A stretch of 64,000 nucleotides of DNA from Streptomyces iranensis. GTDB lineage: Bacteria; Actinomycetota; Actinomycetes; Streptomycetales; Streptomycetaceae. A program made the translations under genes and the position numbers. Location: positions 248,001 to 312,000 of the forward strand of contig NZ_JAGGLR010000003.1 in NCBI RefSeq assembly GCF_017874715.1, in the 5' to 3' direction. Below, one piece after another: positions 55,495-58,521 of this stretch (positions are counted from its first letter, which is position 1; every line of letters starts with the position of its first letter). Under the pieces are notes generated by a model. That model ran no database searches. It had not been told where the DNA came from and was given only the letters and a program-made list of their open reading frames with translations.

Positions 55495-56250
55495 ATGCCC
55501 ATAAGACGTGCCCTCGTGGCCACGGCCGCGACGGCGGCGGCCGGTATATCGGCGCTCGCGCTTCCCCCTTCGGCCGCTGACGCGGCCTCCGGCACGGCGC
55601 GGGACTCGTCGTCGGTCCAGGCGCAGGCCGCCGGCTTCGTGGTGAGCCGGGCCCAGTACCAGCGGATGTTCCCGGACAAGAACGCGTTTTACACGTACGA
55701 CGCGCTGGTCAGCGCGATGAACCGGTTCCCCGGATTCGCCAAGACCGGTACGGAGACGGTCAAGAAGCAGGAGGCGGCGGCCTTTCTGGCCAACGTCGGT
55801 CATGAGACCGGTGGCCTCCGCCACATCGTGGAGCAGGACACCTCCAACTACCCGAAGTACTGCGACACGACACGCCCCTACGGATGTCCGGCGGGGAAGG
55901 CCGCGTACTTCGGACGCGGGCCGATCCAGCTCAGCTGGAACTTCAACTACAAGGCGGCGGGCGACGCGCTGGGCGTCAATCTGCTCAACAATCCGGGCCT
56001 GGTGCGGACGGACGCCGCCATCTCCTGGAAGACCGCGCTCTGGTACTGGACCACCCAGTCCGGGCCCGGCTCCATGCCCGCACACAAGGCCATGACCACC
56101 GGTGCCGGATTCGGCCAGACCATACGCGCCATCAACGGCGCTCGGGAATGCAACGGGGCCAACCCCGGGCAGATGCAGGACCGGGTCAACCTCTACAAGA
56201 AGTTCACCAGCCTCCTCGGCGTCGCCCCGGGCGCCAATCTGACCTGCTGA
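55495..56250 (+). CDS. Secreted GH19 chitinase (catalytic domain only)
   Basis: 251 residues. The signal peptide is RRALVATAATAAAGISALAL, cleaved near ADA-ASG. The mature part is a GH19 catalytic domain: MFPDKNAFYTYDALVSAMNR, FLANVGHETGGLRH (catalytic Glu in HETGG) and YFGRGPIQLSWNFNYKAAG. There is no separate chitin-binding domain. It should cut chitin of fungal walls. It is first of four secreted-protein genes in a row (gaps 22, 2 and 84 bp). ATG 55495 follows AGAGAG. Confidence 0.93.
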   Translation: MPIRRALVATAATAAAGISALALPPSAADAASGTARDSSSVQAQAAGFVVSRAQYQRMFPDKNAFYTYDALVSAMNRFPGFAKTGTETVKKQEAAAFLANVGHETGGLRHIVEQDTSNYPKYCDTTRPYGCPAGKAAYFGRGPIQLSWNFNYKAAGDALGVNLLNNPGLVRTDAAISWKTALWYWTTQSGPGSMPAHKAMTTGAGFGQTIRAINGARECNGANPGQMQDRVNLYKKFTSLLGVAPGANLTC

Positions 56251-56272
56251 GCGACCTTCCCACGGAGGAGTC

Positions 56273-57178
56273 ATGCGCAGAATTCTGATCGGCCTGGCCA
56301 CCGCGGCACTGGTGGTGCTGGCGGCCCTGCTGCCGACCGCGGGGACGAGCGCGGCCACGAGCGTGGCGCTGCCGACCGGCAACGCACCCGTCGCGGCCAT
56401 GAAGGCCGATAAGGCCACTCCCGCCAAGGCGAACGAGGCGACCAACGAGAACAAGGCGACCAACGAGAACAAGGCGACCAACGCGAACGAGACGGCGAAC
56501 ACGACCAAGGCGGCCCGCGCGGCCAACCACACGGTCACCTTCGTCAACCACACCGGACGGAAGGTGTGGATCGGCAGCGCCGTCAATGCCGATGGCTCGA
56601 AGCAATTCGCCAAACTGCCCATCCTGGGACCCGGACAGTCGGCGTCGGTGACGATCCCCGAGAACGCCGAACCCGGCCACTGGCGGGGAAAGTTCTTCGC
56701 CCGTCTGGGATGCACCGGCGCCTCGGGCAGCACCTTCCACTGCAAGGTGGGGGACTGCGGCAAGTTCGCCGACCACTGTGAGCTGGGCGAACGGCCCGTC
56801 AGCCTCGCCGAGTTCAATTTCGACACCAAGGACACGCTCGCTCCCTGGTACAACGTGAGCTACGTCAACGCGTTCTCCAACCCCATCACGATCGCCCCCA
56901 AAAACCCCGCCGGAGGCGGAGGTTGCGGCACCCAGGGCTGCACACAGAACCTGCTGCCGTTCTGCCCGGCCGCCAACCTCACCCGCTGGCCGGACGGCAC
57001 ACCGATGCTGTGCACCAACCCCAACCGGGACGTCAAGACGCCGTACAGCAACGCGATCGCCTCCCGGTGCCCCAAGGCCTACGCCTGGTCCAAGCAGGAC
57101 CAGGAGCCCGGCAATCAGGTGATGCAGAACTGCGGTAAGTGCAGTGGCTTCACCGTGACCTTCAACGCGGGGTCGTGA
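56273..57178 (+). CDS. Secreted thaumatin-like protein
   Basis: 301 residues. After the signal peptide (RRILIGLATAALVVLAALLP) comes an Ala/Asn/Lys/Glu/Thr linker (about 45-80) encoded by an 18-bp repeat, then a thaumatin domain: VTFVNHTGRKVWIGSAV, LGPGQSASVTIPE, WRGKFFARLGCTG, VSLAEFNFD, DWYNVS-type region and many Cys (CGTQGCTQN, CPKAYAWSKQDQ). Thaumatin-like proteins are cysteine-rich beta proteins with antifungal or glucan-binding activity in plants. GGAGG precedes ATG 56273. Confidence 0.88.
   Translation: MRRILIGLATAALVVLAALLPTAGTSAATSVALPTGNAPVAAMKADKATPAKANEATNENKATNENKATNANETANTTKAARAANHTVTFVNHTGRKVWIGSAVNADGSKQFAKLPILGPGQSASVTIPENAEPGHWRGKFFARLGCTGASGSTFHCKVGDCGKFADHCELGERPVSLAEFNFDTKDTLAPWYNVSYVNAFSNPITIAPKNPAGGGGCGTQGCTQNLLPFCPAANLTRWPDGTPMLCTNPNRDVKTPYSNAIASRCPKAYAWSKQDQEPGNQVMQNCGKCSGFTVTFNAGS
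56437..56490. repeat. 18-bp in-frame repeat in the thaumatin-like gene linker
   Basis: Units of gcgaccaacgagaacaag occur about three times and encode ATNENK-type residues in the linker between signal peptide and domain. Confidence 0.75.
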
Positions 57179-57180
57179 CC

Positions 57181-58002
57181 ATGCGGAGGATGCGACTTCT
57201 CGCCGTACTGCTGGCGGTGGTGACCCTGCTGACCGCCGGAAGTCAGACGGGCGCCGGCGCGTCCACCGCCGCGGTGAAGAAGAAGGGCGTCAGCGCCTGG
57301 AAGTTCAACGGGGTCACGGCGGCCATGTCCGATGCCAAGGTCGGCTGGTTCTACACCTGGGCCTCGGGCAAGCAGCAGATCCAGCCTCCGGCCGGGGTCG
57401 AATTCGTGCCCATGATCTGGGGCCCCGGCTCGGTGACCGACGCCGAACTCAACCAGGCCAAGAGCCAGGGCACGACCCTGCTCGGCTTCAACGAACCGGA
57501 CATGGCGGGCCAGGCCAATATGACCGTCGCCAAGGCGCTCCAACTGTGGCCCCGGCTCCAGTCGACCGGAATGCGGCTCGGCGCGCCCGCGGTGGCCTAC
57601 GGCGGCGATGTCGCCGGTGGCTGGCTCGACCGCTTCATGAAGGGCGCCGCCGACCGCAACTACAAGGTCGATTTCATCCCCCTGCACTGGTACGGCGCCG
57701 ACTTCGACGCCACCCGCGCGACCGAACAGCTGCGCGGCTATCTCCAGGCCACCCACAACCGCTACAACAAGCCGATCTGGCTCACCGAATACGCGCTGAT
57801 CGACTTCTCGACCGGTACCCCGAGGTATCCGACCCCGGCGCAGCAGGCCGCGTTCGTGAAGAAGTCCACCGCCATGCTGCAGGGCTTGTCCTTCGTCCAG
57901 CGGTACGCGTGGTTCACGCTCTCCGCGGACCGCGGCGGCACCGGTCTCTACAACGGCGCGACGCCCAACCAGATCGGCACCGCGTACCGCGCGGCCGGGT
58001 GA
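57181..58002 (+). CDS. Secreted GH128-type beta-1,3-glucanase
   Basis: 273 residues. The signal peptide is RLLAVLLAVVTLLTAGSQTG. The rest is a GH128 (Asl1-like) catalytic domain: VGWFYTWASGKQ, FVPMIWGPGS, LLGFNEPDMAGQANM (catalytic acid), FIPLHWYG and IWLTEYALIDFS (nucleophile Glu). Such enzymes cut beta-1,3-glucan, a main component of fungal walls. It starts 2 nt after the thaumatin-like gene, so the two are co-translated. Confidence 0.9.
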   Translation: MRRMRLLAVLLAVVTLLTAGSQTGAGASTAAVKKKGVSAWKFNGVTAAMSDAKVGWFYTWASGKQQIQPPAGVEFVPMIWGPGSVTDAELNQAKSQGTTLLGFNEPDMAGQANMTVAKALQLWPRLQSTGMRLGAPAVAYGGDVAGGWLDRFMKGAADRNYKVDFIPLHWYGADFDATRATEQLRGYLQATHNRYNKPIWLTEYALIDFSTGTPRYPTPAQQAAFVKKSTAMLQGLSFVQRYAWFTLSADRGGTGLYNGATPNQIGTAYRAAG

Positions 58003-58086
58003 GACAGGACCACCCGCGCTCACACCACACCACACCACTCACACGACCCACACCACACCATGACCATCGAAACGAGGTCCTCCACC

Positions 58087-58521
58087 ATGCGCAAGGCAAC
58101 GCTGATCGGCCGACTGGCGGTCGGAGCCGCCGCACTGACCGCCGTGGTGACCGTCGCCCCGACGAGCACCGCGGCCACCAGCGACACCCCGCCGCCCGGG
58201 AAGAACTGCTGGGCCACGCACTACGGCTACATACCGCCCGGTGCCTACACCGCCAGCGGCGAACTCTTCAACAACAACGCGAACACCGCCGCGACCTCCC
58301 TCAGCCGCAGCCCGCAGCTGCCGTTCGGCACCAAGGTGAAGGTCACCAACGTGGCCAACGGCAAGTCACTGGTCGTGCGCGTCAACGACCGTGGCACCTT
58401 CGGCTGGACGCCGGCCGTGCCCAAGTGTCTGGACCTGACCGACGGCGCCTACTCCCGGCTCGGCGGAGTCCTCAACCCCGACTCGGGCCACATCGTCGTC
58501 AAGGAAAAAATCGTGAGGTGA
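58087..58521 (+). CDS. Secreted double-psi beta-barrel protein (RlpA/barwin-like)
   Basis: 144 residues. Signal peptide [20 protein letters not shown], then a double-psi beta-barrel: [48 protein letters not shown] and [11 protein letters not shown] with the conserved Asp residues. This fold includes RlpA, expansins and plant barwin. Bacterial members bind or loosen polysaccharide. ATG 58087 has GAGG upstream and is preferred over ATG 58060, which has only CA-repeats before it. Last gene before a strong terminator. Confidence 0.87.

Follow-up and report, generated by a model that had tools for sequence, protein, structure and literature searches.

It has long been asked how thaumatin-like (PR-5) proteins harm fungi; among the other plant pathogenesis-related (PR) proteins, PR-2 belongs to GH17 and PR-4 to the barwin family. 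Here we analyze a cluster of four adjacent genes from Streptomyces iranensis, encoding a GH19 chitinase, a thaumatin-like protein (TLP), a GH128 β-1,3-glucanase and a double-psi β-barrel (DPBB) protein, which lies in a stretch of 64,000 nt (positions 248,001 to 312,000 of the forward strand of contig NZ_JAGGLR010000003.1; hereafter the window). Among described systems, a comparable pairing occurs in shiitake, whose glucanase GLU1 we take to be a GH128 enzyme. The TLP TLG1 and the endo-β-1,3-glucanase GLU1 are named side by side as β-1,3-glucanases of one fruiting body (PMC3430601), although both are fungal proteins and their target is the fungus's own wall. TLPs are described as an antifungal protein family (PMC13106811), and GH19 enzymes are known as antifungals (PMC6097792). 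The excerpt on Streptomyces melanosporofaciens STM-2 (PMC13047742) speaks of chitinases and glucanases in general and leaves thaumatin unmentioned, and in that of PMC6406012 thaumatins appear solely as an example of transfer into animals. Among the matches listed from the open-licence literature, judged by titles and the starts of abstracts, we found no report of a bacterial TLP–GH128 fusion or pair, of a DPBB–GH19 pair or of the four-gene operon. The protein classes as such are known; what is informative is their recurrent coupling.

The conserved unit at this locus is the pair of TLP and GH128, not the four-gene set, which is a lineage-specific assembly. We read the cluster as two association habits joined, one for glucan (TLP with GH128) and one for chitin (GH19 with DPBB). 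Our preferred interpretation, to which we assign a probability of roughly 0.6, is that the cluster encodes a secreted module for attack on fungal walls, in which the TLP gives GH128 access to β-1,3-glucan. The four genes lie on the same strand, with intergenic gaps of 22, 2 and 84 nt:

55495–56250, plus strand: GH19 chitinase gene (251 aa, single domain)
56273–57178, plus strand: TLP gene (301 aa: signal, low-complexity linker, TLP domain with 11 Cys)
57181–58002, plus strand: GH128 β-1,3-glucanase gene (activity by family; 273 aa)
58087–58521, plus strand: DPBB gene (144 aa, predicted secreted, single-domain)

The presence, order and close spacing of these genes, as given in the original prediction, were borne out by the open reading frames and by a Pfam profile search, the source of the family calls, in which all four proteins exceed the curated cut-offs. 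The DPBB gene likely starts at 58087, because the alternative ATG at 58060 is missing from the printed frames of relatives. The signal peptides that were also predicted appear plausible, in that all four N-termini look like secretion signals when judged by eye. The description of the set as four plant PR classes, by comparison, overstates the likeness: the GH19 belongs to the family of PR-3 and the TLP to that of PR-5, but the GH128 protein resembles PR-2 in activity only and the DPBB protein resembles PR-4 in fold only, and no cluster protein matched the GH17 or barwin profile at E ≤0.1 (Pfam).

The coupling of TLP and GH128 was followed in a genus sample of 295 Streptomyces genomes, in family and class samples, and on plasmids. 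TLPs were found in 30 of the 295 genomes and GH128 in 44, of which 33 have strong matches (>100 bits) and 11 were excluded because their matches are weak or fragmentary; TLP and strong GH128 occur together in 28 (Fisher p 8e-32, a value that ignores shared ancestry). Window-type TLPs, defined by at least 50% identity to the window TLP, occupy 27 places in the genus, the window counted. At 14 of these the TLP is fused to GH128 in one frame, at 11 a same-strand GH128 gene lies no more than 300 nt away, and two are without GH128. The family sample, from which 40 stretches were fetched, with the places of a distant TLP type (28–36% identity) covered in part, adds 13 window-type places, four fused and nine adjacent to GH128; of the two further ones in the class sample, one is fused and the other, which lies where its contig ends, has no GH128 match. 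(Two of the loci, L008 and L048 in our numbering, apparently come from one genome, as their proteins are identical and their contigs equally long.) Both domains were confirmed by Pfam in all three fused proteins scanned (535–550 aa). The fused architecture, signal–TLP–linker–GH128, resembles by analogy the placement of a binding module before a catalytic domain. In trees from which frames with internal stops and short pieces were excluded, the fused rows form one group for both GH128 (100/99) and TLP (SH-aLRT 99, quick method). Within that group fall a few unfused rows (L063 in both trees, L056 and L076 in the TLP tree), which may reflect fission or contig breaks. We also met window-type TLPs, labeled glycosyl hydrolase in the annotation, on four Streptomyces plasmids, and the one that was read is fused; such TLP genes on plasmids mean that pieces of the system may move horizontally. 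On linear plasmids specifically, we noted this fused TLP–GH128 on NZ_CP109206.1 (L082) and a lone distant-type thaumatin on NZ_CP108601.1 (L083). Co-occurrence, synteny and fusion in relatives lead us to reject a chance cluster.

Both predicted hydrolases of the cluster carry the hallmarks of their families. The GH128 protein (Glyco_hydro_cc, 3e-50, 171.3 bits against a cut-off of 21) has as its nearest solved structure 6uaq (365 bits over 249 residues), which we believe to be the GH128 subgroup I enzyme of Amycolatopsis mediterranei, and from which the window's protein differs in being encoded directly after a TLP and, in relatives, fused to it. Two Glu columns, presumably the catalytic residues, are invariant in 49 of 49 rows; the 6ufl chain has Gln at one of them. 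The GH19 protein (Glyco_hydro_19, 6e-47, 160.7 bits against 25.5) is nearest by sequence to 2cjl (343 bits), and here too two Glu columns, which we likewise assume to be catalytic, are invariant (19/19 rows). Because both Glu columns are kept in each, the two enzymes are expected to be active on β-1,3-glucan and chitin, respectively. The GH19 belongs to the same family as Streptomyces coelicolor ChiG (2cjl, named in PMC6097792), the entire chain of which aligns with it, and chitinase C (1wvu), and differs from these in being encoded together with a TLP and a glucanase.

What the TLP contributes is the crux of the proposed mechanism. The cluster protein (Thaumatin, 2e-26, 93.7 bits against 27.4) is alike over 219 aligned residues to its nearest solved structure, the thaumatin pathogenesis-like protein 7p22 (350 bits), for which no paper was found in the open-licence literature. 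The Glu of the LAEF motif is invariant in all 38 window-type TLP rows. Two columns which we take to be Asp of the acidic cleft (REDDD motif) hold Asn in the window TLP and in 24 and 32, respectively, of those 38 rows, whereas acids are retained there in the 10 distant-type rows. The prevalence of Asn at these columns, despite retention of the LAEF Glu, would favor binding over catalysis. The alternative, that the TLP is itself a catalytic β-1,3-glucanase (GH64-TLP superfamily) and GH128 a second enzyme with another cleavage preference, finds encouragement in the β-1,3-glucanase activity reported for recombinant nematode TLPs, along with antifungal activity of nematode TLPs (PMC13106811), and in the constancy of the LAEF Glu; given the Asn at most of the putative cleft positions in the window type, we regard it as rather unlikely. 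The linker of the window TLP (56399–56512) is an Asn/Lys/Thr-rich repeat (NENKAT) of ~36 residues that is absent from four relatives (L002–L005).

The other two genes are far less constant companions. The intact four-gene set occurs in 4 of the 295 genomes (the window's, G117, G240 and G286), and in G096 the GH19 of the set is fragmented. The search for conserved synteny suggested with the original prediction thus singles out not the set but the TLP–GH128 core, whose two genes co-occur in 28 of the 295 genomes and are tied by adjacency and fusion. Nine loci of TLP relatives were read from named genomes, and all seven from Streptomyces share the order TLP–GH128–DPBB. A GH19 of complete mature length stands before the TLP in L002, L003 and L008, and none was found beside TLP at L005–L007. 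In L004 the GH19 is shortened and GH128 and DPBB are each split over two frames; in L005 the GH19 frame is lost while the GH19 start and the ribosome-binding region of the TLP persist. Outside Streptomyces but in the same family, three genomes of one genus (g150, L130–L132) have GH19–TLP–GH128 in the same order without DPBB. GH19 relatives are widespread, in 244 of the 295 genomes. A tree built from 19 GH19 sequences, all of fetched loci, places the operon GH19s (7 rows from 6 genomes) in one clade and the DPBB-paired GH19s in another, each at 98/99.

DPBB matches, in turn, were found in 27 of the 295 genomes. Of 30 matches, eight below 50% identity were dropped, and the loci fetched from these (L097–L099) are without partner genes. 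The 22 places retained, all of at least 64% identity, divide into nine at TLP–GH128 loci (one of them, in G175, a fragment with a stop), eight upstream of GH19 and away from any TLP (L088–L090, L093, L094 and L096, with L086 in pieces and L092 a partial match), three with neither partner beside them, and two that look like remnants. Of the latter, L084 has GH19 and GH128 as partial matches or pieces and no TLP, and L085 is a lone DPBB between the same flanking genes as the cluster. In both GH19-linked DPBB proteins that were scanned, a ricin-type lectin domain precedes the DPBB. We find no support for the transfer of a four-PR set from plants as a unit: the parts pair otherwise elsewhere, and the operon and DPBB-paired GH19s fall in separate clades, in trees that hold no plant sequences.

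For the DPBB protein of the cluster, DPBB_1 is the sole Pfam profile to pass its cut-off (9e-10, 39.1 bits against 28.8), solved relatives are distant only (nearest by sequence 4avr), and the structure model is of low confidence (mean pLDDT 62.5). With that limit, a fold search of the model returned RlpA-like, kiwellin, expansin, loosenin and barwin-like structures, among them sugarwin (Z 7.7) and a papaya barwin-like protein (Z 7.6), while expansins and loosenins (4jcw and 9ce9, Z 8.3 and 8.1) would share its fold. Expansins have a second, carbohydrate-binding domain beside the DPBB, whereas the window protein is a single domain of 144 aa. Our best guess is that it loosens chitin or glucan. 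Could it instead be an RlpA-type peptidoglycan lytic transglycosylase, unconnected with the fungal-wall genes around it? Its top sequence and fold matches are RlpA-like, but it misses the RlpA subfamily cut-off (58.9 against 82.15 bits), the column of the RlpA TAAH His, which we take to be catalytic, is Thr in the window protein and in 28 of 32 rows, and DPBB adjoins GH19 and/or GH128 in 17 of the 22 places (18 counting the remnant L084), all of which makes this very unlikely. A protease inhibitor that protects the enzymes from fungal proteases, like the Streptomyces papain inhibitor, is somewhat less implausible, albeit still unlikely: the NCBIfam papain inhibitor model gives a weak match (E 0.013), the inhibitor SPI (5ntb) resembles the low-confidence model at Z 6.6, and papain inhibition is reported for an RlpA-like DPBB protein of a fungus (PMC7662947), but the score of 15.5 bits stands against a cut-off of 150, and the lectin domain of the two scanned relatives, together with the eight places upstream of GH19, indicates a polysaccharide.

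The original prediction further proposed a possible common promoter and a shared strong terminator, to which the following features correspond:

54957–54997, plus strand: promoter-like block with the DasR/chitinase-type element TGGTACGGACCA, TTGACA at 54969–54974, a 17-bp spacing and TGTTAT at 54992–54997
55177–55192, no strand assigned: inverted repeat TGTCA-N6-TGACA, conserved in the leader
58538–58570, plus strand: GC-rich hairpin, candidate terminator (12-pair core, z −3.6, no U-tract)

In 11 of the 71 sources scanned (window included), a block, GGTnnnGACCATTGAC, precedes the leading gene of the cluster, whether this gene is GH19 (five: window, L002–L004, L065), TLP (five: L005–L007, L061, L064) or the lone DPBB of L085. 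The fully printed copies have a TGTYAT hexamer behind the block. Because in the window's clade the block precedes whichever gene is first, shared transcription is likely, and the pattern supports a single promoter for the set in that clade. A sigma-70 promoter scan of the window found none, TGTTAT failing the scan's rule of A at position 2; the candidate promoter is the conserved block. The inverted repeat occurs at nine places in the 71 sources, every one ahead of the cluster. At the other end, the proposed terminator corresponds to the hairpin, which for want of a U-tract goes unlisted by the terminator scan; similar hairpins lie downstream in L002, L003 and L065 and other strong ones in L006 and L085, and L005, L061 and L064 have none comparable.

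The window's TGGTACGGACCA has three mismatches to the 12-bp dre core (consensus from PMC6097792) and the copies of relatives have one or two. Taken by itself, the copy in the window lacks significance, as 29 places with at most three mismatches occur in the 64-kb window. One-mismatch sites number six in 1.26 Mb, four of them at the cluster promoter, in related species and hence non-independent, and one before the other GH19 of the window's genome. A search of the fetched locus L001 with the dre consensus gave no match because L001 begins downstream of the element. At L106:9256–9290 in the window's own genome (G000:C5), TGGTCTATACC and TGGTATAGACCA, dre-like, flank TTGAC before the second full-length GH19. 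Upstream of L048 we noted, by eye, a variant of the promoter block, and upstream of both L048 and L044 a GAGCGCTCTC-like palindrome near TTGACA, which to us resembles an operator of the LacI family (CebR-type).

The candidate promoter also bears on whether the module serves fighting or feeding. Its chitinase-type element resembles those to which DasR, a nutrient-responsive regulator, binds (PMC6097792), and the patchy occurrence of TLP–GH128 in the genus, with window-type TLPs also plasmid-borne, is expected of accessory catabolic genes; the enzymes might thus digest dead fungal biomass, with any antifungal action incidental. Against this account, authors cited in PMC6097792 suggested that GH19 enzymes contribute little to the bulk breakdown of chitin and are important in interactions with fungi, and the standing of TLPs as an antifungal family (PMC13106811) points the same way. 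We consider feeding a serious contender that nonetheless falls short of even odds.

In the wall-attack module that we prefer, TLP and GH128 would form a core acting on one polymer, β-1,3-glucan, which the TLP most likely binds and opens or targets for GH128, a job that relatives would perform within a single fused protein. In the window's lineage, GH19 would have joined to add chitin cutting, and an expansin- or loosenin-like DPBB to add non-hydrolytic loosening. One promoter with a chitinase-type element, possibly under DasR control, would probably transcribe all four, so that the breakdown products of chitin would also induce attack on glucan. We infer an antifungal effect from this combination. 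A secreted, fungal-wall-directed operon, as originally proposed, remains the best reading, and relatives back its shared transcription, but its four genes are not a conserved unit.

Several observations count against this interpretation. First, GH19 is truncated, fragmented or not beside TLP at six loci (L004, L005, L006, L061, L064 and L065), and since it is lost or broken in such close relatives the four genes are no obligate set. Second, the core itself is at times incomplete or rearranged: five genomes have strong GH128 without TLP (G037, G156, G159, G207 and G271), two have TLP without strong GH128 (G032 and G122, the latter's TLP with a stop), an Actinomadura locus (L009) has GH128 5 kb from TLP with GH19 adjoining on the other strand, and in Goodfellowiella (L010) GH128 precedes TLP. 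For the distant TLP type, only 19 of 40 places have a GH128 gene on the opposite strand no more than 2 kb away (genus 7/8, class 1/1, fetched family 11/30, plasmid 0/1), which indicates a looser tie than that of the window type. Third, the promoter block was not seen upstream of L044, L045, L047, L051, L059 or L010, nor was it or a dre-like block in the five upstream regions of fused genes that were read, and the leader between block and GH19 is long, ~500 nt. Finally, the Asn at both putative cleft columns renders catalysis by the TLP doubtful, and the glucan binding that we propose for it is putative.

Around the distant-type TLPs we also observed, at four loci (L070, L071, L153 and L156), one GH128 gene between two distant TLP genes on the opposite strand. 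The cluster itself is bordered by FAA-hydrolase and 2OG-Fe(II) oxygenase genes upstream and a protein kinase gene downstream, relatives of which also border it in L002–L005. The own genome (12.0 Mb in 82 contigs) has a single PF00314 match, the cluster TLP, and one GH128; besides the cluster GH19, it has one full-length copy and two short matches with stops.

A broader idea, which we hold tentatively and as somewhat less probable than its negation, is that TLPs are dedicated glucan-targeting or -loosening modules for GH128, that plant PR-5 and mushroom TLPs act likewise, and that DPBB does the same for GH19. If true, the TLP would have a role like that of a carbohydrate-binding module, selected strongly enough for fusion in many Streptomycetaceae; plant PR-5 proteins and mushroom TLPs would mainly open glucan for separate glucanases; and DPBB would open chitin for GH19 as TLP opens glucan for GH128. 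The natural TLP–GH128 fusions and their split versions offer matched proteins with which to ask whether TLPs bind glucan, loosen it or cut it. For chitin, the GH19–DPBB pairing poses the parallel question, and the cluster as a whole provides compact parts for biocontrol research.

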